Below the pieces are notes generated by a model. It was given only the letters and a program-made list of their open reading frames with translations. It was not told the origin of the DNA and searched no databases. Shown here piece after piece: positions 2,205 to 32,433 of a stretch of DNA of 41,734 nt. A program made the position numbers and the translations under genes. The stretch lies in IMG/VR virus record IMGVR_UViG_3300037141_000012, positions 1 through 41,734 of that record. One strand, 5' to 3'. The stretch's first letter is position 1. Every line of letters begins with the position of its first letter. Source of the stretch: a virus.

Positions 2205-3145
2205 GGGCGAGCCTTCTTGGATGCGTCCAAAGCCGCGTCCAGTGCTTTGAGCGCCGCGAAGGTATCAGGTCCCGCTGCGGTGACGGTTACGGCGTCTTCA
2301 CCGACGCGATAGGCGACGGTCATGGTGATAGATCCGCCGCGCCCATCCGCCGCGTCCATCGTCTTGATCTCAGGCTCTTGGGGTGGGAGGGCGGTGGCCA
2401 GGGCGGAAAACAAGCGTGCGGCCTGGACTTCGAGGTGAGGGGCGTACTTTTCGCCGTAGGCCACCACCTCCCGCGCCGCCTTCACCAGCGCATCCCGCTC
2501 GGCCTGGACGTCCAACTTCAATCGGAGAGCCGTGTTCAGCGTCTCCCGCGCCCGTGCGAGTTCGGCCTTTCCAGCTTCTAACTCAGCTGTCGCTCGGCGA
2601 AGTTCCGCACCGGCCATCTCCACGTCCCGGTTACGGTCTGCCATCTGCTGGCCGTAGAGTTCATCCTCGGCGCGGCGCTGGCGCAACTCGGCAAGCATTT
2701 TCGCCATGAGGGCAATCGGAACAGCCTTTGTTTCAGCGGGACCTCTCTTCGCTCGCACATTGAAGGCATCCGTCCATAGCGCCAGCAGTTCGTCTAGTTG
2801 AAGACAAATGGGTTCATCGTCATGACCAAGCGCGTATATTCGCTGATCCTCGGCGCGGCGCTCAGTGATTTCAGCCCACATGCGCCGGCTGAGTTCATTG
2901 GGACAGCGGACTGCCCACGCCGAGCGTGTCAGGCCATCAACACTCGCAAGCTCTGCACCCGTCAGACGTTCGGCGGTCGAAGCGATGGTTTCTCCGTCGC
3001 TCTGCGCCCGCGCCTGCCTCACCTCGGCGATCAGACTGAGAAGATCGGCGCCCCCGACGTGAAACGACGTGCCGGCGGCGAAGGCAACCTCGGCGTTGTG
3101 AACCCACCGCGCCAACGTGTCCTCATCGATTATCGGGCGATCCAT
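2201..3145 (-). CDS. Coiled-coil phage protein, 314 aa
   Basis: Start chosen at ATG 3145 (MDRPIIDEDTLARWVHNAEV) behind AGGA with 8 nt spacing; a GTG at 3262 is in frame, but the extra residues are Cys/Arg-rich and overlap a hydrophobic frame. Residues ~160-235 are a long charged coiled coil (ERAELARARETLN-like heptads). The last ~60 residues form a separate, probably beta-rich domain (GGSITMTVAYRVGEDAVTV). The largest early gene here; function not recognised. Its stop overlaps the next start. Confidence 0.7.
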   Translation of the reverse strand: MDRPIIDEDTLARWVHNAEVAFAAGTSFHVGGADLLSLIAEVRQARAQSDGETIASTAERLTGAELASVDGLTRSAWAVRCPNELSRRMWAEITERRAEDQRIYALGHDDEPICLQLDELLALWTDAFNVRAKRGPAETKAVPIALMAKMLAELRQRRAEDELYGQQMADRNRDVEMAGAELRRATAELEAGKAELARARETLNTALRLKLDVQAERDALVKAAREVVAYGEKYAPHLEVQAARLFSALATALPPQEPEIKTMDAADGRGGSITMTVAYRVGEDAVTVTAAGPDTFAALKALDAALDASKKARP

Positions 3146-3153
3146 GGTCGATC

Positions 3154-3273
3154 CTATCTGAACAAATGGGTGAGAAGCCACGCGACCGCGGCAAACGGCA
3201 GCAGGCAGAGCGACCACCAGCCGACAATCGCAGCCACAATGATCGGGGCGCCGATCAGCCACGAGACGATGAT
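3154..3273 (-). CDS. Hydrophobic reading frame without clear start
   Basis: A frame encoding two adjacent hydrophobic segments (VSWLIGAPIIVAAIVG and LCLLPFAAVAWLL) ends at TAG 3154-3156, 8 nt before the next gene. No ATG or GTG precedes the hydrophobic stretch. The frame is -1 relative to the membrane gene ending at 3255, so it could be a frameshift extension, an alternative-start gene or chance. Boundaries are nominal. Confidence 0.25.
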   Translation of the reverse strand: MIVSWLIGAPIIVAAIVGWWSLCLLPFAAVAWLLTHLFR

Positions 3274-3482
3274 CGCGCCCTTGGAATCGGAATTAAAATC
3301 ACCCTCCCGACGATCAACACCACGGCCAGCCAGAAACCGATCTGAGGCGCGAAGGCTGAAGCGGTTGGCCCGCAAATCCACCCGGGCGACCGGATCGGCG
3401 ACGAATGCCAGGCGACCAGAAGCCACGGCAGGCCGAGCGTACCGGCGCCGAGCGCGAATAGCCAAATGATGGGATGAAGCAT
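3255..3482 (-). CDS. Small membrane protein, 75 aa
   Basis: Starts MLHPIIWLFALGAGTLGLPW behind AGGAG with 6 nt spacing. Two hydrophobic helices are visible (residues ~3-25 and ~50-68) joined by a polar loop; the C-terminus is Arg/Ser-rich. It is the first gene of the long leftward operon, starting about 45 bp from the operator at 3525-3538. A holin-like or exclusion role is possible but unproven. Confidence 0.7.
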   Translation of the reverse strand: MLHPIIWLFALGAGTLGLPWLLVAWHSSPIRSPGWICGPTASAFAPQIGFWLAVVLIVGRVILIPIPRARSSSRG

Positions 3483-4726: not shown

Positions 4727-4927
4727 TTAGCCCGCGACCCTCACGACCCACCGCACACCCTGCGCACGGCCACAGCAGACCTTACCGAGCGCCAGCACGC
4801 CGAGCACAATGGCCCAATCATCGTCTATCCGCATGATCTGGGCTTTGAACTCGCCGAGCGTGGTCGCGTAGGGCTCGCCATCCGCGATGGAGACTTCGAC
4901 CGGGGTGGAGTTGGTGAGGTCGGTCAT
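4727..4927 (-). CDS. Hypothetical phage protein, 66 aa
   Basis: The start at 4927 (MTDLTNSTPVEVSIADGEPY) overlaps the stop of the 46-aa membrane protein as ATGA; an in-frame ATG two codons earlier has no ribosome site. Predicted beta-rich (FKAQIMRIDDDWAIVLGVLA) with a C-terminal basic strand. No family recognised. Confidence 0.65.
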   Translation of the reverse strand: MTDLTNSTPVEVSIADGEPYATTLGEFKAQIMRIDDDWAIVLGVLALGKVCCGRAQGVRWVVRVAG

Positions 4928-5064
4928 CGGCATATCGGAGCAGAAGCCATCGCAATCATCAGCCCTGCCATTATGCCTCCCAGAAAGGCCGCGCTGGCGC
5001 CTATGAAGCAAAGGGTGGCGAATAGGCATGGCATCTCGAATCGATGTCTTTTCACGGTCATCAT
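4924..5064 (-). CDS. Small membrane protein, 46 aa
   Basis: MMTVKRHRFEMPCLFATLCF leads into two hydrophobic segments (FATLCFIGASAAFL and GIMAGLMIAMASA). The basic N-terminus (KRHR) points to N-in topology. The start overlaps the previous stop (ATGA) and its stop overlaps the next start (ATGA), so it is embedded in the operon's coupling. A role at the inner membrane is likely, otherwise unknown. Confidence 0.65.
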   Translation of the reverse strand: MMTVKRHRFEMPCLFATLCFIGASAAFLGGIMAGLMIAMASAPICR

Positions 5065-5432
5065 CCCACCGCCGCCATCAGCCGCGACACCGCACCCGCG
5101 CGGCGCTCCAGTTCGCGCTGCCCGCGAAAGGACAGCGGCAAGATCACATCGACATTGATGCCGCCGAGAAAGCTCTTGGATGCCATCGCCTTCACAGCCT
5201 CGACGGGAAGCCGCTGGATGCCCTCGGAGATGAAAGACAGCCGATAGGTGATCCCGGCGCCCCCGCCGCCCACATGCTCGCCCGTGCGCTCCAGATCGGC
5301 GATGATTGCCGCTTCGTCCAGACCTTCGTTGTCCGCGAAGAACTCGCGCATTTCGATCACGGTGAATTCGGTCCCCGCGTGAAGCGTGACCAGCGTGTCG
5401 GGGCGGATGGGGAACTTGGGGGCCTTGGCCAT
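5061..5432 (-). CDS. Hypothetical phage protein, 123 aa
   Basis: Start at 5432 (MAKAPKFPIRPDTLVTLHAG) is chosen because GAGGA lies 8 nt upstream; longer readings to 5447 or 5504 lack a site and run into the operator. Helix-rich: EMREFFADNEGLDEAAIIAD then a Gly-rich loop and a C-terminal helix (RGQRELERRAGAVSRLM). No known family. It is the first gene after two operator copies, so it probably has its own promoter. Confidence 0.7.
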   Translation of the reverse strand: MAKAPKFPIRPDTLVTLHAGTEFTVIEMREFFADNEGLDEAAIIADLERTGEHVGGGGAGITYRLSFISEGIQRLPVEAVKAMASKSFLGGINVDVILPLSFRGQRELERRAGAVSRLMAAVG

Positions 5433-5474
5433 CTGGGTTGTCCTCATGAGAGCGTCCGGATCGGACTGACAAAC

Positions 5475-5488
5475 AAGTGATATCACTT
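5475..5488. promoter_or_regulatory. Perfect operator palindrome AAGTGATATCACTT
   Basis: The only perfect 14-bp copy of the motif (centre 5481.5), about 43 bp upstream of the gene starting at 5432. Read leftward, TTGCTT lies 16 bp before TATCAC, the same geometry as at 1072-1101. The next copy is 56 bp away. Confidence 0.7.
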
Positions 5489-5530
5489 TGCGTGGGGGAA
5501 GCAATAGAGAAGGCGAGGAGCGACGAAAGA

Positions 5531-5544
5531 AAGTGATATCAGGT
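5531..5544. promoter_or_regulatory. Operator-like palindrome AAGTGATATCAGGT
   Basis: Core TGATATCA at 5534-5541, between two leftward genes and abutting the stop (5544-5546) of the upstream one. Forms a pair with the perfect site at 5475-5488. Confidence 0.6.
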
Positions 5545-5771
5545 TAGAGATAGACGCGCTTCACGAACGAGGCCTTGACCTCAACGCCTTCGGGGAAGCC
5601 CCACCCGTCAAGCAAGCTGTCGGCAACATCGTCGCAATCAGTGTCCGATGGCAGCGGCATCTCGCCCTTGGGGTCCGGGTGTGTGACTTCGACAATGTAC
5701 GTCGTCTTGAACTTCGCGTAGACGGTCCCAGCGGGCATCGCGAGGAACGTGGCGCGGTCAACGATGCGCAT
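5544..5771 (-). CDS. Small conserved-type phage protein, 75 aa
   Basis: Starts MRIVDRATFLAMPAGTVYAK, an opening seen in many phage small proteins (MRIxDRxTFLxxPxGTVxxK). The remainder is an acidic, probably beta-rich body ending EVKASFVKRVYL. It overlaps the end of the ribbon-helix-helix gene by 14 nt. No function established. Confidence 0.75.
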   Translation of the reverse strand: MRIVDRATFLAMPAGTVYAKFKTTYIVEVTHPDPKGEMPLPSDTDCDDVADSLLDGWGFPEGVEVKASFVKRVYL

Positions 5772-6099
5772 TGGGCTTGCCCTTGGTCGGTTTCAGCATT
5801 GAGCCAAACGCTGGACGCCGCGGCCCGACCTGAACCCCCTCCAGTTCATGCACGATCCCATGCGACGCCACGGCTTCGACGCGCTGGCGCTTCGCAGGCA
5901 CAACCACCGTGCGCGCCCGTCCATGGGAGAACGAAGGCCCTCCCGGCTTGGGAACAGCAGGAACAGAGGCGCCACCACGCCCGTTGCGCCATGCATTGAC
6001 CAGAACGTCGGTCACCGTGATCCCCAACGTCCGCGCCTCAGAGCGCATCGCTTCGAGGTCGGGGGCGTCTACCCGTATGCTTATCAGCGTCTTTTTCAT
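5758..6099 (-). CDS. Ribbon-helix-helix type DNA-binding protein
   Basis: 113 aa. Start at 6099 gives MKKTLISIRVDAPDLEAMRS; a longer reading to 6183 would cross the operator. Residues 3-10 (KTLISIRV) form a basic beta strand, 12-27 a first helix, and TVTDVLVNAWRNG a second helix after a turn: the layout of a ribbon-helix-helix domain, which dimerises and reads the major groove with its strand. The rest (Pro/Gly/basic) is not recognised. First gene of its operon, directly downstream of an operator copy at 6123-6136, so autoregulation is plausible. Confidence 0.65.
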   Translation of the reverse strand: MKKTLISIRVDAPDLEAMRSEARTLGITVTDVLVNAWRNGRGGASVPAVPKPGGPSFSHGRARTVVVPAKRQRVEAVASHGIVHELEGVQVGPRRPAFGSMLKPTKGKPNAHR

Positions 6100-6122
6100 G
6101 GGCTGTATGTACACGAGAGTTA

Positions 6123-6136
6123 CGCTGATATCAACT
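6123..6136. promoter_or_regulatory. Operator-like palindrome before RHH gene
   Basis: TGATATCA at 6126-6133. Read leftward, TTGATA followed 17 bp later by TACATA could be a promoter whose -35 lies in the palindrome, about 30 bp before the regulator's start codon. Confidence 0.55.
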
Positions 6137-6196
6137 TGCGGAGTAGAACCCCGAGGGGGTAGAAACTTTTCAGTCGGTGACAATGCGGCGTTATCT

Positions 6197-6230
6197 GCCA
6201 GAGGAAATTCCCCGGGGCCTCCCCTCTGGC
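6197..6230. repeat. Inverted repeat, 8-bp stem
   Basis: GCCAGAGG (6197-6204) pairs with CCTCTGGC (6223-6230); the 18-nt loop contains CCCCGGGG. No T-run follows on either strand, so a simple intrinsic terminator is not supported. Confidence 0.5.
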
Positions 6231-6516
6231 CGACGTCGAACGATAATCGACAAAGTCGGGCTCATTTCAGAGAGGTTGCACCGACCCGCGTCTAAGCACG
6301 GCTCTGCAGGCCGATGGCGTGTGAACCTCTCCTCCCTTGCCCAGCCTTAATCCTGAGCCTATACGCGTTGAGACGCTCGGATTGCGCCCTCCCCATTTTC
6401 ACCGGGAACTATCCGGTTGACGTACCAGACGCTAAATGTAGTGTCCGCCAACCAACGATGCGTTCCCTAGGCCCTCTCCGTCGCGGCGTCAAAATTGAAG
6501 TGCGAAGGAGAGCGCC

Positions 6517-6732
6517 GTGGACGGTGAGAGCGAACTGGACACCAAAGAGATCGAGATCACGCCTGAGATGATCGAGGCGGGAGGCGAGGCTTTGGCCGGC
6601 TACAACCTTGATTTCTACGGGGAGGAAGACTGGGCTCGCTGGGTCTATGTCGCTATGCGTCGGGCGAGTCGTAGGAAATCAGCGTCGACGAATGAGGGCG
6701 TTGCACATGGGCAAGCTCTAAGTCGAACCTAG
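6517..6732 (+). CDS. Small conserved-type phage protein, 71 aa
   Basis: GTG start behind AAGGAG (8-9 nt spacing). The segment EITPEMIEAGGEALAGYN followed by DWARWVYVAMRR is a pattern I know from many phage small proteins (ITxEMxxAGxxAL... V-x-x-x-Y-x-AM). No role is established. First rightward gene after the divergent region, 99 bp before the small terminase. Confidence 0.75.
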   Translation: MDGESELDTKEIEITPEMIEAGGEALAGYNLDFYGEEDWARWVYVAMRRASRRKSASTNEGVAHGQALSRT

Positions 6733-6746
6733 CGGGACGGCATGAC

Positions 6747-6778
6747 TTGACCTCTAAATCTGATATCAAATCTATATG
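6747..6778 (+). promoter_or_regulatory. Putative promoter with operator before terminase genes
   Basis: TTGACC (6747-6752) followed by TGATATCA (6761-6768) and TCTATATG (6771-6778). -35 to TCTATA spacing is 18 bp; TTGACC also lies 11 bp before TATCAA, the same spacing as TTGTCG at the divergent 3528 site. The palindrome would let the early repressor silence the packaging/head operon. Promoter function is inferred. Confidence 0.5.
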
Positions 6779-6831
6779 TCGTGCTTTGGTACATCAACCG
6801 GATAGTTCCCTTTTCACGCGAGATTTCACGC

Positions 6832-7362
6832 ATGGCTCGCGACCCGGATGATCTCCTGGACATTAGCCCCGAACCAAAGCCAACCGTCGTCACCGACGAA
6901 ATTCTTGAGGAAATGTGCGCCCGTCTGACTGATGGTCAGAGCCTTCGTCGCATCTGCAACGACGCCCACATGCCCACACGGCAACAGGTCTTTAGATTGC
7001 TCGGCCGCCCTGGCCCTGAGAACCAACCGCTCCGCGACCATTACGCACGCGCGACCACAGCATCCGCGACCGCTTTCGCCGACACCATCGTCTATTACAA
7101 CGAAGAGGTTGCAGCCAAGCGGATGGACCCGGCGGCGGCTCGTGTGGCCATCGACGCTCTGAAATGGACGGCGGGCAAGCAGCAGCCGAAGAAGTACGGC
7201 GATGCCACGCAGATGAAGATTTCCGGCGCCGTGGGAACATTCGATCCAACCAAGATGGCGACCGATGATCTCACCAAGCTCCTCGCAATTGTTGACGGGT
7301 CTTCCTCCAGCGGAGGTGATGGCCCGGATGGTGAGGGAGGAACTGGCGAGGCGGAAGGCTGA
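6832..7362 (+). CDS. terS: Terminase small subunit
   Basis: 176 aa, start MARDPDDLLDISPEPK at 6832; a GTG at 6781 is in frame but lacks a ribosome site and overlaps the promoter. Residues ~22-62 form the DNA-recognition HTH typical of this TerS family (EEMCARLTDGQSLRRICNDA, then MPTRQQVFRLLG), followed by the oligomerisation part with RVAIDALKWTAGKQQPKKYG. TerS recognises phage DNA and presents it to the large subunit. The last ~20 residues are Gly/Asp/Glu-rich. The 3' end overlaps the large terminase frame. Confidence 0.9.
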   Translation: MARDPDDLLDISPEPKPTVVTDEILEEMCARLTDGQSLRRICNDAHMPTRQQVFRLLGRPGPENQPLRDHYARATTASATAFADTIVYYNEEVAAKRMDPAAARVAIDALKWTAGKQQPKKYGDATQMKISGAVGTFDPTKMATDDLTKLLAIVDGSSSSGGDGPDGEGGTGEAEG

Positions 7363-9898
7363 GACCGAGCGCCAGCGGGTTGAGCAGGACGCAGAGGCCA
7401 TCCGGGCGCGGTGCACGAGCTTCGCGGGCTTCGTCAAAGAGGCCTGGCACGTCATTGAGCCGAACACGACTTACGTGCCTTCTTGGCACATCAATGCCAT
7501 TTGTCTGCCTGGGGATACGGAGATCGCGACCGAACGCGGCCCAATGCAGATTGGTCAGATCGTCCGCACCGGGTGGGTTGGGAGGGTCCTAAGCGCGAAC
7601 CACCAAACAGGCGAACTTGAATGGCGCAAAATCACACGTCATATGCGGTCACCTAGAGATAGTATATTTGCCGTCGAGACCCAAAGTGGTTTAAGGTTTA
7701 AGGCGACCGGAAACCATCCTGTCTATGTTGCAGGTAAGGGCTATGTGCGAACTGACGAACTCAGAATCGGCGATCAAGTTGTCGAAATGCATGAACTGTG
7801 CGAAGCAGTTTGCGCCGAAAAGCACCAAGGGCATGTATTGCAGCAGGGCGTGCCACTACGCTCACCGGCGCGCGACGACCCTGGCGCAAAAGGGAACGAA
7901 TTGCAGTCATTGCGGAAAGCGGTTTCACCGCTCTCCCTCTCACATGATCGGCACATTCTGCTCGATGGAATGTTTCGGCCTTTGGAAGACGAAACCGGAA
8001 ACGCGGGCCTGTCCGAAGTGCGGCGGCGTGAAGTCGCCGGGCGCGAAGGGGTGCATGGCCTGCCGTGCAAAAGCACAGTTAAGGTCGGCGCCGACGCCAT
8101 GTCGCCAATGCGGGGCGCCGGTGTATCGAAGTCCAGCGAAGATGCGGGGCTCGGCAAGAACTCATGGGGTGTTTTGCAATCGAGATTGTCACGCCGCGTT
8201 CGTGGTTGGGCCGAACAATGCGGCCTACATCGACGGTCGGCAACCTGCGGCCTACGTGCGCGGATGGGACGCAGCGAAGCGGCGTGTGCTAAAGCGAGAT
8301 GGCCGCGTCTGCTTCATCTGTTCCGGAACCAAGCGTCTGGATGTGCATCACATAGATCGGAATCGAGGCAATCATCGGATGGACAATCTGGTGACCCTGT
8401 GCAGGCGATGCCATGCCAACCAGCACTTGCCTCCGCTGGAACTGGTTATGGCGCGTTCACGGGCGTTATCGCAGCAATTGAACGCGAAGTTCGGCGATCA
8501 GGTCCCCTTTTCAACCTAGAGGTTGAGGGCAATCACAACTACTTCGCCAACGGCGTCCTGGTGCATAACTGCGAACACCTTGAAGCCGTGAGCGCTGGGC
8601 GCATTACGCGCCTTCTGATCAACGTCCCGCCCGGGTCCAGCAAGAGCCTCCTGGTCAGCGTCCTATGGCCAGCGTGGGAGTGGGGACCGCTCGGCCGCCC
8701 ATGGCTGCGCTACCTGTCCACGTCGTTCAATGAAGTTCCGGTCAAGCGTGACACCCGCAAGATGCGCGACCTTGTGGATTCGGAGTGGTATCGAGCGCTC
8801 TGGCCAGAGGTAGTGTTGACGCGCCGCGGTGAACTGAGCTTCGCGAATTCGGCGACCGGCAACCGAGAGGGCGTTCCCTTCGGTTCTCTTACGAGTCAGC
8901 GGGGGGACCGCCTTACCTGCGACGATCTTCACTCAGTCGACACCGCCGAGTCCGCGGTTGAGCGCAACGCGACCACCAGGCGCTTTCGTGAGGGCGCCAC
9001 CAACCGCCTGAACGATCAGCAACGATCAGCCATCGTGGTCGTTATGCAGCGCCTCAACGAGGGCGATGTGAGCGGTGTGATCCTGTCCCTGGGCATGGAA
9101 TACGTCCACCTCATGATCCCGATGGAGTTCGAGCCTGACCGCCGGTGTATCACCTCGATCGGCTGGAAAGACCCCAGGACCCAGGACGGCGAACTCCTCG
9201 ACCCGATCCGCTTCCCGCGGGCCGAAGTCGAGAAGCTCAAGCGCGACATGGGGTCCTACGCCTACGCTGGCCAGTACCAGCAGCGCCCCGCCCCCCGCGA
9301 AGGCGCGATGTTCAACCGGGCATGGTTTGAGATCGTCAAGGCGACGCCAGCCAAGGTCCGCCGGGTGCGCAAGTGGGACCTGGCGGCCACCGTCCCCAAG
9401 GATGGCAGCGACCCCGACTGGACCGTGGGGCTGCTCATGGCTATCGACCAAGACGGCTTCGTCTACATCGAGCATATCGCCCGGATGCGGGTTTCATCCT
9501 TCAACGTCGAGCGAGCGATCAAGAACACGGCCGATCAGGACCGCGCGACTTACGGGCATGTGAAGATCCACATATCCGAAGACCCGGGGCAGGCGGGCAA
9601 GTCTCAGGCCGCGGCGATGGTCCGCTTGCTCGCTGGCCACGTCGTCATGACCGAGCGTGAGACCGGCCCAAAGGAAACGCGCGCCGAGCCCTTCGCCGCT
9701 CAGGCCGAGGCTGGGAACGTCAAGTTGCTGCAGGGCGACTGGAACGAAGCCTTCCTGGGCGAACTTGAGGTTTTCCCCATGGGCGGCCACGACGATCAGG
9801 TCGACGCCGCCAGCGGGGCCTACGCCACCCTCGCGATGAAGCGCCCGCTCTACATCAGCGACAAGATGCTCCAGCGCTCGGCGATGCAGCGGGGCTGA
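7265..9898 (+). CDS. terL: Terminase large subunit, interrupted by an intein
   Basis: 877-codon precursor; residues 80-435 are an intein, leaving a 521-aa mature protein of normal TerL length. N-extein has the WHINAI segment typical just before the ATPase. C-extein has Walker A-like VPPGSSKS (454-461), Walker B LTCDD (550-554), and nuclease-domain acids KWDLAA (D705), SEDPGQAG (E772) and GGHDDQVDA (D843, D844). It packages DNA into proheads and cuts it. 7265 is the outermost ATG; 7319 or 7328, near a GGAGG, may be the true start. Activity should depend on intein removal, because the insertion lies ~20 residues before Walker A. Confidence 0.93.
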   Translation: MISPSSSQLLTGLPPAEVMARMVREELARRKAETERQRVEQDAEAIRARCTSFAGFVKEAWHVIEPNTTYVPSWHINAICLPGDTEIATERGPMQIGQIVRTGWVGRVLSANHQTGELEWRKITRHMRSPRDSIFAVETQSGLRFKATGNHPVYVAGKGYVRTDELRIGDQVVEMHELCEAVCAEKHQGHVLQQGVPLRSPARDDPGAKGNELQSLRKAVSPLSLSHDRHILLDGMFRPLEDETGNAGLSEVRRREVAGREGVHGLPCKSTVKVGADAMSPMRGAGVSKSSEDAGLGKNSWGVLQSRLSRRVRGWAEQCGLHRRSATCGLRARMGRSEAACAKARWPRLLHLFRNQASGCASHRSESRQSSDGQSGDPVQAMPCQPALASAGTGYGAFTGVIAAIEREVRRSGPLFNLEVEGNHNYFANGVLVHNCEHLEAVSAGRITRLLINVPPGSSKSLLVSVLWPAWEWGPLGRPWLRYLSTSFNEVPVKRDTRKMRDLVDSEWYRALWPEVVLTRRGELSFANSATGNREGVPFGSLTSQRGDRLTCDDLHSVDTAESAVERNATTRRFREGATNRLNDQQRSAIVVVMQRLNEGDVSGVILSLGMEYVHLMIPMEFEPDRRCITSIGWKDPRTQDGELLDPIRFPRAEVEKLKRDMGSYAYAGQYQQRPAPREGAMFNRAWFEIVKATPAKVRRVRKWDLAATVPKDGSDPDWTVGLLMAIDQDGFVYIEHIARMRVSSFNVERAIKNTADQDRATYGHVKIHISEDPGQAGKSQAAAMVRLLAGHVVMTERETGPKETRAEPFAAQAEAGNVKLLQGDWNEAFLGELEVFPMGGHDDQVDAASGAYATLAMKRPLYISDKMLQRSAMQRG
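7502..8569 (+). mobile_element. Intein in large terminase with out-of-frame endonuclease
   Basis: 356 codons in the TerL frame. Block A: CLPGDTEIATERG with C80 as the first residue. Block B: ATGNHPVYV with T148 and H151. Block F/G: LFNLEVEGNHNYFANG then VLVHN ending in H434-N435, followed by extein C436. All splicing residues are present. Between about residues 175 and 398 the TerL frame is low-quality sequence (Ser/Arg/Gly-rich, no endonuclease motif), merely free of stops, because this DNA encodes the HNH protein in the +1 frame. So this is functionally a mini-intein with a long linker. Confidence 0.93.
7743..8519 (+). CDS. HNH homing endonuclease nested in intein, +1 frame
   Basis: 258 aa from ATG 7743 (an ATG at 7725 is also in frame; a later one at 7791 would lose the first Cys of the first zinc knuckle). 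Four C-x2-C...C-x2/3-C zinc knuckles (starting CMNC, CSHC, CPKC, CRQC) precede a classical HNH domain: WDAAKRRVLKRDGRVCFIC, then LDVHHIDRNRGNHRMDNL, then TLCRRCH. This is the nuclease expected of an intein, but it is encoded out of frame with TerL. Its first ~15 codons overlap intein block B-side strands and its last ~19 overlap the strand before block F. AGGTAAGG upstream is a weak ribosome site. Expression by internal initiation is inferred. Confidence 0.88.
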   Translation: MCELTNSESAIKLSKCMNCAKQFAPKSTKGMYCSRACHYAHRRATTLAQKGTNCSHCGKRFHRSPSHMIGTFCSMECFGLWKTKPETRACPKCGGVKSPGAKGCMACRAKAQLRSAPTPCRQCGAPVYRSPAKMRGSARTHGVFCNRDCHAAFVVGPNNAAYIDGRQPAAYVRGWDAAKRRVLKRDGRVCFICSGTKRLDVHHIDRNRGNHRMDNLVTLCRRCHANQHLPPLELVMARSRALSQQLNAKFGDQVPFST

Positions 9899-9918
9899 TC
9901 CACCCGCCAATCTGTCAC

Positions 9919-9937
9919 GGAGGCCGCGTTGACCTCC
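9919..9937 (+). promoter_or_regulatory. Hairpin masking a ribosome site
   Basis: GGAGG (9919-9923) can pair with CCTCC (9933-9937), leaving the TTG start (9929) in the loop. The ribosome site of the following gene would be closed unless ribosomes ending terL open it. Confidence 0.4.
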
Positions 9938-10204
9938 ATGACCATGACGTTGATCACGATCGAAACCGAGGCTCTCCAAGACACGGCCAACGAACTGATC
10001 ATCTTGCGGCGCATCCTGGCGAGTAGGCATGGCGAACCGTTCCGGGCGCTTGACCGGCGCCTTGAAGCCCTCCCGGCCCTCACGCTCCCGACGCCCATCC
10101 ACCCGCTGCACTCTGACGACGGCTCATGTCAGTTCATGGTGCAGCCCCCGCAGGAATGGACCGACATCTTGATCCAAGCACGGGCTCTAGGGGTTCTGGT
10201 CTGA
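9929..10204 (+). CDS. Small phage protein, 91 aa
   Basis: TTG start 5 nt after GGAGG; an ATG at 9938 is the alternative. Starts MTSMTMTLITIETEALQDTA; a helical segment (residues ~15-45) is followed by a proline-rich stretch and a C-terminal helix (PQEWTDILIQARALGVLV). Lies between terL and the portal, stop overlapping the portal ATG (TGATG). No family recognised. Confidence 0.65.
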   Translation: MTSMTMTLITIETEALQDTANELIILRRILASRHGEPFRALDRRLEALPALTLPTPIHPLHSDDGSCQFMVQPPQEWTDILIQARALGVLV

Positions 10205-11976
10205 TGGCCAAGGGAAAGAAGGCCAAGCGGGCTCGCCAAGAAGCGCGGCGCGCGGCGCGCACGGCAGCGGTAGCCGCGCCGGCGGTCGAACATCCCCCCG
10301 TGGTCAAACTGAACATCCCGCCCCCGTGGAAGGTCACAGACGCCGCCTTGGCGATGAGCCGGCGCAAGACTGGCCAGCAATCCGATGTAATCCCGGTGAT
10401 CTTCGAGATGCCCAGGCATCCGCCGCATGTTGTTCCGGCCGGAACTCCCAAGCATGAAATCTTAGCCAATGATGAACAGATCATCGAGGTCAACGCCTGG
10501 GCTGGCCAACAGGCTTACGGCGGCGCCTATGCCAACGGCGTGATGTGGCTTGGCTATACCGAACTCGCGACCATGGCGGTCCGGACCGAGTATCGGCGCA
10601 TGGCGGAAGTCGTCGCGACCGAAGCCACGCGCAAGTGGATCAAGCTGCAGTCGGCATCCGCGAAGGGGAAGAACAAGGGCAAAGACCCGAAGGCCGGGAA
10701 AATCGCCGAGCTTGCCGCAGAACTGACGCGCCTCGATGTGCAGGGCGCATTCCGCAAGCTGATCGAACTGGACGGACTGTTTGGCCGCGCCCACCTCTAT
10801 CTCGACACGGGCGACACGGACAATCGCGAAGAACTCGTCATGCCGATTGGCAACGGGCGCTCTGCGGCCAGCGTGGCGAAGTTTGCCGGGCGCACGGGCT
10901 TCCTCCAGGCCGTGAAACCGGTCGAACCCGTGTGGTGCTACCCCGCGAAGTACAACGCGACCGATCCGCTCAAGCCCGACTGGTACAACCCGCAAAGCTG
11001 GTTCTGCCAGGGCAAGGAAATCCACTCGACGCGGCTGCTCCCGTTCGTCGGCCGTGAAGTGCCCGACCTTCTCAAGCCGAGCTATAGCTTTGGGGGCCTT
11101 TCGCTCTCACAGATGGTCAAGCCTTACGTCGACAACTGGTTGCGCACGCGCCAAGCCGTGGCGGACCTTATCTGGTCGTTCAGCGTGCGGGGCATCCAAA
11201 CCGACCTGTCGAACCTCATGGCGCTCGACGGCGACGCCATGTACAAGCGCGCCGCCTTCTTCGCGAATATCCAGACCAACCAGGGGATCATGCTCCTGGA
11301 CAAGGAGAGCGAGGAGTTCTTCAACGTCGTAACGCCGCTGGGGTCGCTCGATGCGCTCCAAAGCCAAGCGCTCGAACACATCTGTTCGGCGACCGGCATC
11401 CCGAGGATCAAATACACCGGCATCCAGCCAGCTGGCTTCAATGCCTCGTCAGATGGGGAAATCCGAGTCTGGCTCGATTGGGTCGCGGCCTTCCAAGAAA
11501 AATTCATGACCGCCAAGTTGGGCACTGTCCTGGATTTCGTCATGTTGTCGCTTTGGGGTGAGGTTGATCCTGATATCACTTTCGATTGGGAGAGCCTTGA
11601 GGAACTCGACGACAAGGAAATCGCCGAACGCGACAAGATGCGCGCCGACACGGCGACCGAGTACATCGAGGCTGGCGTTCTTGCACCGATAGATGAGCGG
11701 GCTCGCTTGAGCGATGACCCGGAGGGTGTTTATAGCGGCATCGACGTGGACGACCTCCCTGAGCAGCTCGACATGTTCGGCGAGGAAGGCGCGATGCCGG
11801 ACCTTGGGACTGGCGCGGGCCAACTAAGCGCCACAGAGCGCCCACCGCGCGACGATCGGAGCCGCGACAGATCGGATGAAGGTGATCGCGGTGCGCGGGG
11901 CGAACGGCCCGACCGTGACCGCTCTCGCCAAGACGGCGAACGCTCAGACAGGGCGCGCGAACCGCAGGACGCTTGA
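10204..11976 (+). CDS. Portal protein, DUF1073-like
   Basis: 590 aa, start MAKGKKAKRARQEARRAART overlapping the previous stop; the in-frame GTG at 10126 is not needed. A basic N-terminus (1-25) leads into a portal fold: YTELATMAVRTEYRRMAEVV, a helical stem region (YVDNWLRTRQAVADLIWSF), and GIPRIKYTGIQPAGFNASSD followed by VWLDWVAAFQEKF, as in DUF1073/Acb1-N-type portals. It forms the dodecameric ring through which DNA is packaged. The last ~50 residues are a Arg/Asp/Glu/Ser-rich tail (DRSRDRSDEGDRGARGERP) unusual in length. A TGATATCA at 11571-11578 lies inside the gene. Confidence 0.88.
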   Translation: MAKGKKAKRARQEARRAARTAAVAAPAVEHPPVVKLNIPPPWKVTDAALAMSRRKTGQQSDVIPVIFEMPRHPPHVVPAGTPKHEILANDEQIIEVNAWAGQQAYGGAYANGVMWLGYTELATMAVRTEYRRMAEVVATEATRKWIKLQSASAKGKNKGKDPKAGKIAELAAELTRLDVQGAFRKLIELDGLFGRAHLYLDTGDTDNREELVMPIGNGRSAASVAKFAGRTGFLQAVKPVEPVWCYPAKYNATDPLKPDWYNPQSWFCQGKEIHSTRLLPFVGREVPDLLKPSYSFGGLSLSQMVKPYVDNWLRTRQAVADLIWSFSVRGIQTDLSNLMALDGDAMYKRAAFFANIQTNQGIMLLDKESEEFFNVVTPLGSLDALQSQALEHICSATGIPRIKYTGIQPAGFNASSDGEIRVWLDWVAAFQEKFMTAKLGTVLDFVMLSLWGEVDPDITFDWESLEELDDKEIAERDKMRADTATEYIEAGVLAPIDERARLSDDPEGVYSGIDVDDLPEQLDMFGEEGAMPDLGTGAGQLSATERPPRDDRSRDRSDEGDRGARGERPDRDRSRQDGERSDRAREPQDA

Positions 11977-14268: not shown

Positions 14269-14482
14269 CACGGTTTGCATGTCGGCTAAGACCGGCGCTG
14301 CGATCCTCAAGGCCCTCGGTCTTGAGCCGAATGTCTTGTCGCTCACGATCACTATCGGCCCCGCCGGCTCAATTCCAACGATGACCATTGTGCGTCCGAT
14401 CCAGGTCGCTGCTGGCGATGCCTTCGCTGAGGTCATGGAAGAGTATTTCCTGGCTGAGAAGGCGACCGCGCCTAAGGAGTGA
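14261..14482 (+). CDS. Small phage protein, 73 aa
   Basis: Starts MSDTVCMSAKTGAAILKALG, 8 nt before the previous stop. Contains a strand-rich centre (VLSLTITIGPAGSIPTMTIV) and a C-terminal helix (AFAEVMEEYFLAEKA). Resembles small proteins of unknown role found near head genes. An in-frame ATG at 14204 would overlap the previous gene and is rejected. Confidence 0.65.
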   Translation: MSDTVCMSAKTGAAILKALGLEPNVLSLTITIGPAGSIPTMTIVRPIQVAAGDAFAEVMEEYFLAEKATAPKE

Positions 14483-14486
14483 CGCG

Positions 14487-15749
14487 ATGGCCGACTTCAA
14501 AGAGGGCGATCATCCGCGCGCTGACAATGGCGAGTTTAGACAGGGCGCTGGTGAGTCCCACGCCACGCCGACCGATCTAGCCGACGCGCTTGAGAAGAAG
14601 CATCCGGGCCTGAAGCTCGATTTGGGCGGCAGCGGATCGGTTGTGACGCTTTCGCGGATTGTGGTTCCGAAAGACGCGCGAAGTGCGGGCGCCGGGTCAG
14701 CGGTCATGAAGGCCGTCACTGATTGGGCCGACAAAAACGGAAAAACGGTAGCGCTGTCACCTTCGTCCGACTTTGGCGGCAGCAAGTCGCGGTTGGTCGA
14801 ATTCTATAAGCGGTTCGGGTTCGTCGAGAACAAGGGCCGCGAAAAGGACCACGCCATTTCGGAGACGATGCATCGGACACCCAAGGGCGCGGCCAACGAC
14901 GCCGAGCCGGAACCAGATAGCGTCGGGCGCATCCATTACGAGCGGCGCCCGATCAGCAAGGCCCAGATCGACGAATACAAGGGCGATGAGATTCCCGGGT
15001 ATAAGGAACTCGGCCTGTCGCCTGATGTTCGCTACAAAATGCTGCGATGCCCAAAAGAATTGGCCGCGGCGGCTTCCACGTTCAACGGGATTCAGTTGCT
15101 CCATCGCCATGTTCCTGTGTCGGTGGACGATCACCGACCCTATGACGTTGTGGGCGCGCTGGGCACGAACGCCGAGTTCGAGGACCCCTATCTCTACAAC
15201 GATATCAGCGTGTGGACCCAGGCGGCGATTGACGGCATCGAGGACAAGAGCCGCCACGAGCTCAGTTCGTCCTACCACTACACGCCCGACATGACGCCCG
15301 GGACCTACAAGGGCGAAGCCTACGACGGCGTGATGCGTGCGATAGCCGGCAACCACACCTGCCTGATCCCCAAGGGCCGCGTCGGACCCGATGTCGCGCT
15401 TGACGAAGCAGCACTGGAGGGTTCCATGCTGCTGGCGCTTGATGCTGAGATCAACTGCAACAGGCAATGGGCAGTCCTGGCCGATGCGATCTTGGCGATG
15501 GACGAGGTAAAGCACGATCCAAAGAACGGCCAGTTTTCTAAGGGTGGCGGCTCTGGCGGCGGCAAGGGCGCCAAGAAGCCGAACCAATTTCATCAACAGA
15601 AGCACGAAAACGCCACGAGCGCCGCTCACAAGGCGGCCGATAAGGCGCACGCGGACGCGATGAAAAAAGGGCTCGGTAAGGCCGTGTCAGATGACCGCGC
15701 TGCGGCTGCCTTCCGCAAGGAATACGATACCCAGATGGCAAGATTCTAG
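14487..15749 (+). CDS. GNAT acetyltransferase domain fused to DUF2213-like prohead protein
   Basis: 420 aa; AAGGAG 7 nt before ATG 14487. Residues ~25-120 look like a GNAT acetyltransferase: beta strand VVTLSRIVVPKDAR, acetyl-CoA loop SAGAGSAVM, and terminal LVEFYKRFGFVENKG. Residues ~145-330 match DUF2213 (GRIHYERRPISKAQIDEYKG, DHRPYDVVGALG, HELSSSYHYTPDMTPGTYKG), a phage family of prohead protease-like proteins. Both the N-terminus (HPRADNGEFRQG) and residues ~345-357 (KHDPKNGQFSKGG) carry the D-x-NG-x-F motif. The C-terminus is Lys/Ala/His-rich. Enzymatic activities are inferred; the fusion is directly visible. Confidence 0.8.
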   Translation: MADFKEGDHPRADNGEFRQGAGESHATPTDLADALEKKHPGLKLDLGGSGSVVTLSRIVVPKDARSAGAGSAVMKAVTDWADKNGKTVALSPSSDFGGSKSRLVEFYKRFGFVENKGREKDHAISETMHRTPKGAANDAEPEPDSVGRIHYERRPISKAQIDEYKGDEIPGYKELGLSPDVRYKMLRCPKELAAAASTFNGIQLLHRHVPVSVDDHRPYDVVGALGTNAEFEDPYLYNDISVWTQAAIDGIEDKSRHELSSSYHYTPDMTPGTYKGEAYDGVMRAIAGNHTCLIPKGRVGPDVALDEAALEGSMLLALDAEINCNRQWAVLADAILAMDEVKHDPKNGQFSKGGGSGGGKGAKKPNQFHQQKHENATSAAHKAADKAHADAMKKGLGKAVSDDRAAAAFRKEYDTQMARF

Positions 15750-15763
15750 GAGCGACCCAAAAC

Positions 15764-16783
15764 ATGAGCCGCTTGATCGCTGAACTTCGCCGCAAATATC
15801 GCACCCCACAGGATGCTCTTCGAGCGCTGGGCATGGACCATGCTCTTCTTATCCAACCATCATCCAAGGAGCCCGAAATGGCTGCGAAAACTGCAATGTC
15901 CCGCACGGCCATTCGTGTCCAGGGCGCGCTGACTGCCTATCTCGCACCAGCGCTGGCTATGGATGCCAAGCTGGACCTGTCGCCCGTTCTCAAGGGGCTG
16001 ACGGCGAAGAACCTGAAAGCCCGCACGCCCGCGCTGGTCAAGTCCATCCTCGCCATGGATGGGATCGAGGAAGCCCTGGCGCCGGCTGGAGCCGCGACCG
16101 GCGCCACGCCGGACGATGTGATCATGCGGGTATTGGATCTGGTCGGCGGCCAGGTCGCTGGCGATCCCGAGCCCGACGTTCCGCCTGACCCCGCTGCGGT
16201 TGACCCCACCGCCGGCCCCGTCGAGGACGATCCTGCGGCCGGCGGCGACCCCAGCGCCAAGATGTCCGAAATGCTCAAGGGCCTCGCTCCCGAGGAACTG
16301 GCCGCGCTCAAAGCCCTCCTGGGCGGCGGTGGGGCCGAGGACGAAGAAACCGAAGAGGAAAAGGCCGCTCGCATGGCAAAAGAAGGCGCCAAGGATGATC
16401 TGGGCGGTTGGCCCGATGCCGACAAGCCCCCGACAAAGGCCGCCATGGACGCCGCTCTCGTGGCTCACGGTAAGGCCGTGGAACAGCGCGTGCTCAAGAC
16501 GCAGCGCGAGATCAGTCAGGCCCGCGAGTTCGTCCGCCCGTGGACCGGTTCCCTCGCGATGGACAGCGCCGAGAGCGGGGCCGACGTGTTCCGCGGTGCG
16601 CTCAAGGCCCTTGGGGTCCAGGGTGTCGACACCCTCCATGCCGACGCGCTCAAGCCGATCCTGAGCGCCCAGCCGAAGCCCGGCGCGCGCCCGGCGCGCG
16701 ATCCCGAGGTCGCTATGGACGCGGCCGGCGTCGACAGCTACGCCACGCGCTTCCCGGGCGCGATGAAAGTCGCCCTGAACTAA
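15764..16783 (+). CDS. Scaffold-like protein
   Basis: 339 aa. Residues ~125-230 are Pro/Asp/Glu/Ala-rich, including an acidic run (EDEETEEEKAARM); the C-terminal ~100 residues (QREISQAREFVRPWTGSLAM, FRGALKALGV) resemble the C-terminal part of DUF2213 proteins from related phages, so protease-like and scaffold-like parts are probably split here. Scaffold proteins shape the prohead and leave before maturation. AGGAG lies 11 nt before ATG 15764, but a better AAGGAG lies 6 nt before an internal ATG at 15878, so two products are possible. Confidence 0.7.
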   Translation: MSRLIAELRRKYRTPQDALRALGMDHALLIQPSSKEPEMAAKTAMSRTAIRVQGALTAYLAPALAMDAKLDLSPVLKGLTAKNLKARTPALVKSILAMDGIEEALAPAGAATGATPDDVIMRVLDLVGGQVAGDPEPDVPPDPAAVDPTAGPVEDDPAAGGDPSAKMSEMLKGLAPEELAALKALLGGGGAEDEETEEEKAARMAKEGAKDDLGGWPDADKPPTKAAMDAALVAHGKAVEQRVLKTQREISQAREFVRPWTGSLAMDSAESGADVFRGALKALGVQGVDTLHADALKPILSAQPKPGARPARDPEVAMDAAGVDSYATRFPGAMKVALN

Positions 16784-23909: not shown

Positions 23910-25622
23910 ATGTCCCTCACGCAATCTATCCCAGCGTCCAACTATGTGACCATCAACCCCGGTGTGCTGTCCGCTGGTGGCGCTGGGCCGAGCATGAGCG
24001 GCCTCTACCTGACCACCTCGACGCAGGTTCCGATTGGGACCGTCGTTAGCTTTGCGTCAGCGCTGGCGGTGGCCACCTACTTTGGGGCCGGCTCGCTTGA
24101 GGCGGCGGATGCGGCAATCTATTTCTCCGGTTTCACCAACAAACAACAGACCCCTGGCGCGCTGTTGTTCACTCAATATCCATGGGCCGTGTCCGTTCCG
24201 GCCTACTTGCGCGGCGGCAACATTTCCGGACTGACGCTGGGCCAAATCCAGGCGATCACCGGCACGATCACCCTGACCATTGACGGCCAGTCGGCGACCT
24301 CCGGAGCGCTGAGCGGTCTCAGTTCGGCAACCTCGTTCTCGAACGCCGCCTCAATTATCCAGACCGCACTTGGCTTCTACGATGCCGTGGTCACCGCTTC
24401 GATCACCACGACCAACATGACCGTTTCAGCGGTCGCTTCCGGTGTGTTGGCGCCGGAACAAACCGTCTCGGGCGCCGGCGTGACGGCCGGAACGACCATC
24501 GTAAGCCAGACCTCGGGCTCATCCGGTGGCGCTGGCGTCTATGTCGTTTCGGTGTCTCAATCGGCGTCGTCCACTACGGTCTCGGCTGGCCCGGCTCTGG
24601 TGACCTATGACAGCGTCTCCGGGGCCTTTATCATCACCGGCGGCACGCCAGGTTCGGCAGGGGCCATCACGGCTGCCAGAGGCTCCGCTGCGGCTCCGCT
24701 GCTGCTGACGACGGCCACGGGAGCTGTAACCTCTCAGGGCGCCAACATAGCGACCCCCGCGGCGTTCATGACCAATCTCATTTCGGTCACGCAGAACTTC
24801 GCTGCCTTCGCCACCAACTTCGAGCCGACGCCCACCGACAAGATCGCGTTCGCCCAATGGAATGCGACGCAGAACGACGCCTACGGGTATGTCTACGACA
24901 GCACCGAGGTCGCGCTGACGACCAATTCCGACTCGGCCACGTCCCTCTACAGCATCATTCAGGCCGGCTACGGCGGAACGATCTGCAACTACCAGCCCAG
25001 CTACCTCCATACCGCGGCCTTCGTCATGGGCATGATCGCGTCGATCAATTTCGGGGTTCCGAACGGTCGGATCACCCTGGCCTACAAGAACTCTCCGTCC
25101 CTGGCCCCCGGAGCCTTCTCGCAGACCGTGGCGGCCAATCTGGAAGCCAACGGCGCCAACTACTACGGCGCGGTCGCCAACGCCTCGAACGCCTGGAATT
25201 TCTACTATCCCGGCCAGATCACCGGCCCGTACAAGTGGGCTGACAGTTACGTCAACCAGATCTGGCTGAACCAGTCGCTTCAGACCGCCATCGTCACCCT
25301 GCTGACCTCGGTCAACTCAATCCCCTACGATCAGCCCGGCTACGATCTGGTCTCGGCGGCCTGCAATGACCCGATCCAGGCGGCCGTCACGGCCGGTGTC
25401 ATTACCCCAGGCGTTACCCTTTCGGCGCTCCAGGCCCAAGAGGTCAACACCGCCGCTGGCGCCAATATCTCCGGAACGCTTTCGGTTCGCGGCTGGTATC
25501 TTCAGGTCGGCCCCGCGACCGCCGCCCAGCGCGCGGCTCGTCAGTCGCCGCCGTGTACGCTCTGGTATTGCGACGGCGGCTCGATCCAGCGGATCAACTT
25601 GGCCAGCATCGTGGTGCAATAA
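23910..25622 (+). CDS. Tail sheath-like protein, DUF3383-type
   Basis: 570 aa. Opening SIPASNYVTINPGVLSAGGA, FASALAVATYFGAGSLEAAD, YFSGFTNKQQTPGALLFTQY and LTLGQIQAITGTITLTIDGQ are DUF3383 features; later FAAFATNFEPTPTDKIAFAQ, YKNSPSLAPG, NQIWLNQSLQTAIVTLL. These proteins form the contractile sheath, so the phage should be a myovirus. A beta module is inserted near residues 160-227 in what would be an exposed domain. Confidence 0.87.
   Translation: MSLTQSIPASNYVTINPGVLSAGGAGPSMSGLYLTTSTQVPIGTVVSFASALAVATYFGAGSLEAADAAIYFSGFTNKQQTPGALLFTQYPWAVSVPAYLRGGNISGLTLGQIQAITGTITLTIDGQSATSGALSGLSSATSFSNAASIIQTALGFYDAVVTASITTTNMTVSAVASGVLAPEQTVSGAGVTAGTTIVSQTSGSSGGAGVYVVSVSQSASSTTVSAGPALVTYDSVSGAFIITGGTPGSAGAITAARGSAAAPLLLTTATGAVTSQGANIATPAAFMTNLISVTQNFAAFATNFEPTPTDKIAFAQWNATQNDAYGYVYDSTEVALTTNSDSATSLYSIIQAGYGGTICNYQPSYLHTAAFVMGMIASINFGVPNGRITLAYKNSPSLAPGAFSQTVAANLEANGANYYGAVANASNAWNFYYPGQITGPYKWADSYVNQIWLNQSLQTAIVTLLTSVNSIPYDQPGYDLVSAACNDPIQAAVTAGVITPGVTLSALQAQEVNTAAGANISGTLSVRGWYLQVGPATAAQRAARQSPPCTLWYCDGGSIQRINLASIVVQ
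24387..24590 (+). repeat. Beta module copy 4 (sheath)
   Basis: TASITTTNMTVSAVASGVLA, GAGVTAGTTIVSQTSGSSGG, AGVYVVSVSQSASSTTV. Nearly identical in protein pattern, and visibly similar at DNA level, to copy 5 in baseplate J. Confidence 0.85.
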
Positions 25623-32070: not shown

Positions 32071-32432
32071 TGGACACAATGTTACTTGATCAGGCCCAAT
32101 GGGATGTCTGCGTCGATGTCGCCGGCAACTGGGCTCTGGCGACTGAGCCTTACGCCATCGCCCAGGATGCCGCCTCGGCCATGCGGACCTTCCGCCGCGA
32201 GGTCTATTACAACACCACGATAGGCATCCCGTACTTCTCGACCGTGCTGGGCAAGCGGCCTCCATCGGGCCTGCTGAAGTCCTACTTCGTCAGCGCCAGC
32301 TTGACGGTTCCGGGCGCGGCCTCAGCTGTCTGTTACCTCGCGCTGGGGGCCAGTCGCGAACTGCTCGGACAGGTCCATATCACGACGGATGCGGGTCAAG
32401 TCGTGGTCGCCAACACTGGACCGGGGACGTGA
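32070..32432 (+). CDS. gp25-like baseplate wedge protein
   Basis: 120 aa. The pattern D-V-A-G-N-W-A-L-A, then ASAMRTFRREVYYNTTIGIP and RPPSGLLKSYFVSASLTVPG matches gp25/Mu gp46-like wedge subunits that initiate sheath attachment. 1-nt overlap with the spike gene; baseplate J starts 2 nt downstream. Confidence 0.8.
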   Translation: MDTMLLDQAQWDVCVDVAGNWALATEPYAIAQDAASAMRTFRREVYYNTTIGIPYFSTVLGKRPPSGLLKSYFVSASLTVPGAASAVCYLALGASRELLGQVHITTDAGQVVVANTGPGT

Positions 32433-32433
32433 C

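Follow-up and report, generated by a model that had tools for sequence, protein, structure and literature searches.

Three configurations of inteins, full-length, mini and split, are listed in a review of these elements (PMC7765530). Inteins of the large terminase subunit (TerL) have been described as full-length, canonical ones, with splicing demonstrated for the Gaia TerL intein (PMC5050341), and the dCTP deaminase of cyanophage CL131 carries an intein with an in-frame HNH nuclease (PMC6293099). The systems closest to the locus analyzed here are ShiLan, which is not an intein, and the fractured genes, which involve split inteins. Out-of-frame HNH genes are known from insertions in phage methylase genes that are not inteins (PMC11855218, PMC12613952), whereas free-standing endonucleases of the Vsr-like family reportedly accompany the split inteins of the fractured genes (Dassa et al. 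2009, Nucleic Acids Res 37:2560). Overprinted nested genes are themselves familiar in phages, for example Rz1 within Rz.

The window, that is, the whole stretch of DNA analyzed here, is a viral sequence of 41,734 nucleotides (IMG/VR record IMGVR_UViG_3300037141_000012). Its terL gene contains an intein and, nested in that intein in a different reading frame, a nuclease gene. The relevant features are the following.

6781..7362, + strand: terminase small subunit, upstream context (phrog_1482, 5.5e-31)
7265..9898, + strand: TerL gene, interrupted by the intein; ORF of 877 aa (Terminase_6C, 1.7e-13; psiM2_ORF9, 2.9e-19)
7502..8569, + strand: intein coding region, 356 codons in the TerL frame, C1 ... 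H355 N356 / C+1 (Intein_splicing, 7.4e-12; TIGR01445; TIGR01443)
7502..7795, + strand: N-terminal splicing half, intein residues 1-98, with C1, T69 and H72 (AF2 pLDDT mostly >90 to residue ~98)
7733..7739, + strand: Shine-Dalgarno-like AGGTAAG(G) before the ATG at 7743 (seen in the sequence; duplex energy -4.0, moderate here and stronger in many relatives)
7743..8519, + strand: zinc-finger/HNH homing-endonuclease gene, 258 aa, +1 relative to the TerL frame (Pfam HNH, 1.1e-4, above the cut-off)
7743..7795, + strand: first dual-coding stretch, 53 nt, where the N-terminus of the nuclease overlaps the final strand of the N-terminal splicing half
7796..8431, + strand: core of the nuclease gene, with the TerL frame open and encoding a predicted disordered linker (AF2, frame identities)
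8432..8519, + strand: second dual-coding stretch, 88 nt, C-terminal tail of the nuclease over the C-terminal splicing half
8432..8569, + strand: C-terminal splicing half, intein residues 311-356, with H355 and N356 (AF2 pLDDT rising from ~311, >90 from ~321)
10126..11976, + strand: portal protein, downstream context (phrog_146, 1.5e-93)

Elsewhere in the window, two adjacent ORFs (14388-15749 and 15764-16783) both match the head maturation protease phrog_2229 and represent a split or duplicated protease region, and the tail sheath (23910-25622) and baseplate (32389-34068) genes have in common a stretch matching phrog_21413, perhaps a shared add-on domain.

The insert in TerL is an intein in which all the splicing residues are in place, namely, C1, T69 and H72 of block B, the penultimate H355, the terminal N356 and the +1 cysteine (C80, T148, H151, H434, N435 and C436 in TerL numbering, the intein comprising residues 80-435); this is shown by the sequence, whereas the splicing activity is inferred. 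In an alignment of 27 inteins, C1, T69, H72 and N356 are invariant and H355 is nearly so, and the TerL frame of the insert matches, in addition to the Pfam family, the NCBIfam intein_Nterm and intein_Cterm profiles. In 26 intein-free TerL homologs, the motif WHxxAI|CxHLEAV, for example WHIDAI|CxHLEAV, runs uninterrupted across the site with small variations, so that the borders of the intein are exact; precise removal of the insert restores TerL, and the TerL frame has no stop between 7265 and 9898. Occupancy of the site is patchy. For the intein frame, AF2 yielded a confident Hint fold assembled from residues 1-98 and 311-356, with the Mtu RecA intein splicing domain as the best PDB match in Foldseek (2imz, TMt 0.86); the Hint fold thus rests on model prediction. 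The intervening residues 102-310 are predicted to be disordered (pLDDT mostly <50), and no nuclease family was matched by this segment in searches against the Pfam and NCBIfam profiles.

The nuclease ORF extends from the ATG at 7743 to the TAG at 8519, wholly within the intein, with AGGTAAGG upstream of the start, and carries zinc-finger cysteine pairs along with an HNH domain. Across 26 homologs, C120, C123, C145, C149, C190, C193, H202, H203, N215, C220, C223 and H224 are invariant, the last eight of these, together with the significant Pfam match, identifying an HNH (beta-beta-alpha-metal) domain with zinc ligands. The HNH core was modeled by AF2 with pLDDT >90, and the top Foldseek matches include the HNH domains of McrA, DotN and IscB, with weak E-values but a core probability near 1.

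Over the same alignment columns, the window and its four closest relatives are 0.39-0.46 identical in the HNH frame vs 0.19-0.24 in the intein frame. When the 774 nt of the nuclease were shuffled synonymously with the HNH residues fixed, 6.0 stops were expected in the TerL frame and none is observed (P=0.0010); in the reverse shuffle, with the TerL-frame residues fixed, 3.15 stops were expected in the HNH frame, again with none observed (P=0.02). The third frame contains 9 stops vs 9.5 expected. A dN/dS-type test rests on other pairs of elements (see below) because no close relative of the window copy exists; a search for close relatives of L210, the sister of the window element, returned only L210 itself.

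The initial annotation had proposed, for this locus, a complete splicing intein at 7502-8569 with the residues listed above, a full zinc-knuckle/HNH protein at 7743-8519 in the +1 frame, an HNH tail and an intein strand read from the same DNA at 8463-8519, and a TerL frame that is stop-free without encoding a meaningful protein. All four claims held: the first on the motifs, profiles and empty-site homologs, the second and third as proposed, and the fourth in that the TerL frame is open here and encodes a predicted disordered linker.

A scan with the window intein retrieved helicase inteins with a zinc finger and a Vsr-like (DUF559) nuclease in the +1 frame. In later scans, the nuclease sequence alone was the query and the intein halves were then located nearby; the seeds of the intein HMM included nested members but also fractured inteins, mini-inteins and one in-frame intein. 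As the scans were capped at the best 80 each, the counts that follow, which for the first two families include the seed loci, are not frequencies. Among the Vsr-like loci, 85 of 92 are nested at +1 in an unbroken intein frame, with none in frame and none broken. The zinc-finger HNH loci comprise 43 nested at +1, one in frame and 122 without a nearby intein. Stops in the intein frame are absent from all nested +1 loci of these two families. In HNH_3, the third family, 66 of 84 loci have the nuclease nested at +2, and five of the 84 are broken. Altogether, the class consists of 105 non-redundant +1 elements and about 60 elements at +2, cultured phages included, so that the view of the window as a unique oddity had to be rejected: the search for similar arrangements, which the initial annotation had called for among TerL inteins, revealed three well-populated families with two offsets.

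The insertion sites differ between the families. Vsr-like elements mostly occupy DE|CHH of DEAD/DEAH helicases (the helicase Walker B motif), zinc-finger HNH elements reside in TerL at WH.DAI|C.HL (the window and L210-L213) or in the TerL Walker B motif TGKGAH|C.IIDDP, and HNH_3 elements at D..NH|CIDALRY of TerL. Named phages with +1 elements include Gordonia phage Clown, Synechococcus phage S-EIVl, Pseudomonas phage MR14 and Vibrio phages CP-T1, 1.088.O and 104E43.1; +2 elements are present in Acinetobacter phage Highwayman, Tetrasphaera phage TJE1 and Rhodobacteraceae phage LS06-2018-MD07, the isolation status of the latter being unclear. The profile of the nested Vsr-like nucleases matches PDB 3r3p, a mobile intron protein. 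The Vsr-like nuclease is matched by 40 phage records, and those inspected carry only the names of helicases or other host proteins. Nested nuclease genes have generally gone unnoticed in gene annotation.

Several loci deserve separate mention. L282 is the sole in-frame HNH intein found among the relatives of the window nuclease. L096 and L097 are two helicase-like genes on one phage contig (IMGVR_UViG_3300049719_000183), both with nested inteins; the two elements are nearly identical in the ends of the nuclease and in the C-terminal splicing half and differ elsewhere, possibly owing to a recent exchange between them. In Pseudoalteromonas phage PHS3 (L124, KX912252.1), an intein-like insertion in the TerL ORF (2501-3410) contains an HNH CDS annotated on the opposite strand (2541-3251), which may be the antisense counterpart of this layout. 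In Xanthomonas phage FoX3 (L123, MT161383.1; 2569-3366), a LAGLIDADG_2 nuclease (9e-22) lies at +2 within a helicase intein, perhaps as a nested gene or as an in-frame domain shifted out of frame. The TerL inteins of mycobacteriophage Gaia, considered as an already tested nested intein, and of Eureka were rejected as nested inteins, inspection by eye having revealed an in-frame LAGLIDADG domain in each.

Across the class, purifying selection acts on the nuclease frame, and stops are kept out of the intein frame. With the nuclease residues fixed, 907 intein-frame stops were expected in the 105 non-redundant +1 elements and 144 in 51 elements at +2; none is observed in either set. The third frame of the same 105 elements contains 1505 stops vs 1364 expected. 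In five fractured loci that serve as controls, the two intein halves belong to different ORFs, and intein-frame stops occur at chance level (observed/expected 15/16.7, 8/7.9, 11/11.1, 14/14.3 and 17/17.5). Among pairs of related elements, substitutions in the nuclease region number 448, 370 and 875 at the first, second and third positions of the nuclease codons (~2,420 sites each), and those in the N-terminal splicing half number 101, 69 and 223 at the respective positions of the host codons (~578 sites each). Thus, protein-level constraint changes frame at the nuclease boundary.

The offset is constant within each family: +1 for the Vsr-like and zinc-finger HNH nucleases and +2 for HNH_3. The +1 offset is permissive because a synonymous third-base change in the nuclease codon removes any stop in the intein frame. 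The 89 nested +1 nucleases examined contain no pairs of residues that would force such a stop at +1; placed at +2, the same 89 sequences would carry 2.5 forced stops on average, and stop-free coding would be possible for only 3 of them. The HNH_3 family, at +2, must avoid the stop-forcing pairs.

As for the expression of the nested genes, the best start in the nuclease frame is an ATG in 79 of 104 nucleases, and the median anti-Shine-Dalgarno energy is -6.9 for these own-frame starts vs -4.9 for the other two frames treated alike; strong examples include AGGAGG in L088 and GGAGGT in L106. No promoter-like sites were detected inside the window intein, and terminator-like sites number one vs 1.3 expected. 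Internal initiation is the favored and, in our judgment, likely route to the nuclease, an inference made without expression data and with only a moderate site in the window (-4.0). A point against it is that an internal start within a translated gene faces competition from elongating ribosomes.

With regard to origin, Acinetobacter phage BP10 (L375, OP585104.1) encodes, at 2498-3139, a free-standing HNH_3 relative that is about 50% identical to its nested homolog and is located upstream of TerS and of a normal-length TerL, whereas in Highwayman the homolog lies out of frame within the TerL intein. This contrast fits the possibility that free-standing homing genes invaded inteins. The BP10 gene is also a candidate for homing in trans. 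In the tree of the splicing domains, built from few columns and with many open forks, the nuclease types are strongly clustered (8 changes vs 42 when shuffled), and the window groups with L210-L213 (support 93); the tree hints at several gains without fixing the number of origins. In one element, L172, a single stop close to the first zinc finger breaks the nuclease frame but leaves the intein frame intact. We regard L172 as a decaying element, occasional decay being expected for homing elements; in L091, the HNH domain is shortened.

Taken together, these observations are likely to reflect a cis-splicing mobile intein with the homing endonuclease as a separate, independently started, overprinted gene; splicing, nuclease activity and the start site are inferred. 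Under this scenario, ribosomes reading terL would produce a single precursor, with its two Hint halves folded around the disordered linker of ~200 residues, and the intein would be excised by splicing to yield intact TerL. Other ribosomes would initiate at the internal ATG at 7743 and make the free nuclease, which would cut intein-free terL at WH.DAI|C.HLEAV, a target inferred from the insertion site only; in a mixed infection, the cut gene would then receive a copy of the whole intein. The nuclease would gain expression of its own from an essential gene, and the host protein would be protected by splicing. The uncoupling of nuclease expression from splicing, already proposed in the initial annotation, is still an inference, as is homing on the intein-free allele, for which patchy site occupancy is the sole observation. 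The long disordered linker could possibly slow splicing or be proteolysed, which counts against this model.

Among the alternatives, the one that fares best, although we deem it unlikely in the absence of a dedicated search for shift sites, is that programmed ribosomal frameshifting from the intein frame, rather than internal initiation, yields the nuclease as a fusion with the N-terminal splicing half. The constancy of the offset within each family is compatible with frameshifting; however, most nested nucleases have their own ATG with Shine-Dalgarno signals above background, and stop avoidance is a simpler cause of the constant +1. It is very unlikely that the layout is a functionless relic, with the endonuclease mutated out of frame and now dead DNA. 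The stop in L172, the shortened HNH in L091 and the +2 LAGLIDADG of FoX3, which could be a shifted in-frame domain, speak in favor of this view, but for the class it is contradicted: purifying selection acts on the nuclease frame, the catalytic and zinc residues are invariant, the 907 stops expected in the intein frame are all absent, and a relic would lose both frames, which are intact in nearly all elements. Disruption of the nuclease frame with the intein kept, which the initial annotation had named as a refutation, is clear in L172 only.

A fractured intein, with halves made separately and trans-spliced around a nuclease gene, is all but excluded for the window. True fractured relatives exist in Proteus PM2, Klebsiella KP13-7 and Streptococcus GXN1 and among the IMG/VR sequences (for example, L434 and L435), but in fractured relatives the intein frame has 8-17 stops, whereas in the window and the other nested elements it is open across the nuclease. 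All but excluded, too, is a sequencing or assembly error in which two compensating indels, the check proposed in the initial annotation, conceal an ordinary in-frame HNH domain: no supporting evidence was found, a second contig (IMGVR_UViG_3300037140_000160) is 100% identical to positions 4876-10858 of the window (5,983 bp), making a random indel unlikely, and more than 150 other elements, some in complete genomes of cultured phages, share the layout.

Fractured inteins with a free-standing nuclease were observed in L122 (GXN1), L127 (KP13-7), L129 (PM2), L406, L416, L424, L434 and L435. Such inteins are useful as controls and are possible descendants of nested ones. If the nested reading is correct, it also bears on how split inteins may arise, since a nested element that acquires an intein-frame stop has moved closer to being fractured.

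Having settled on the cis-splicing intein with an overprinted nuclease gene as the preferred reading, we compared it with the known systems. That no described case is known, as stated in the initial annotation, held only in part: for phage insertions other than inteins, out-of-frame HNH genes have been reported (PMC11855218), and our claim of novelty is limited to the open-access literature searched, where no published description of a nested out-of-frame endonuclease in an intein was found. Like the canonical inteins, the window element has a splicing domain, is inserted at conserved ATPase/nuclease motifs and carries the endonuclease between the Hint halves; however, the canonical nuclease is encoded in frame with the intein and forms part of one polypeptide with it, as in the Gaia TerL control, whereas that of the window is in the +1 frame, so the element does not qualify as a canonical full-length intein. 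Rz1 resembles the nested nucleases in being a second gene in another frame with its own start, but it is not mobile, and the outer protein, Rz, does not splice. ShiLan (and Applejack, PMC12613952) shares with the window an out-of-frame HNH gene carried by an insertion that introduces no stop into the host gene, and its patchy distribution likewise suggests homing; the ShiLan insertion, however, lacks splicing domains and is presumably retained in the host protein, and its authors report no ribosome-binding site, in contrast to the Shine-Dalgarno sequences of many nested inteins. As the insert in the window is an intein, it cannot be assigned to the ShiLan type, which is defined by the lack of splicing domains. 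The fractured genes of Dassa et al. have in common with the nested elements a separate endonuclease gene, from the same Vsr-like family, between phage intein halves, but there the host gene is in two pieces and splicing is in trans, whereas here the host frame is continuous and splicing would be in cis; the host/intein frame of the window not being broken into two ORFs, it is not a fractured gene. If this reading is correct, the detection of mobile inteins changes, given that in-frame HMM searches miss the nuclease, and so does the understanding of their mobility, with the nuclease dose decoupled from that of the host protein. Long dual-coding genes that are maintained by selection and occur in cultured phages, moreover, provide cases in which gene overlap can be tested and the preference for one offset is clearly explained. 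In a bolder interpretation, which we consider likely, these elements represent an architecture of phage inteins in its own right, cis-splicing with a separately translated, overprinted homing endonuclease. This architecture would comprise at least three families of nucleases, each with its own offset, would be common among TerL and helicase genes while largely escaping annotation, and could plausibly connect intact inteins with fractured genes; an intein overwritten by a separately expressed nuclease would then be a fourth configuration, next to the full-length, mini and split ones.
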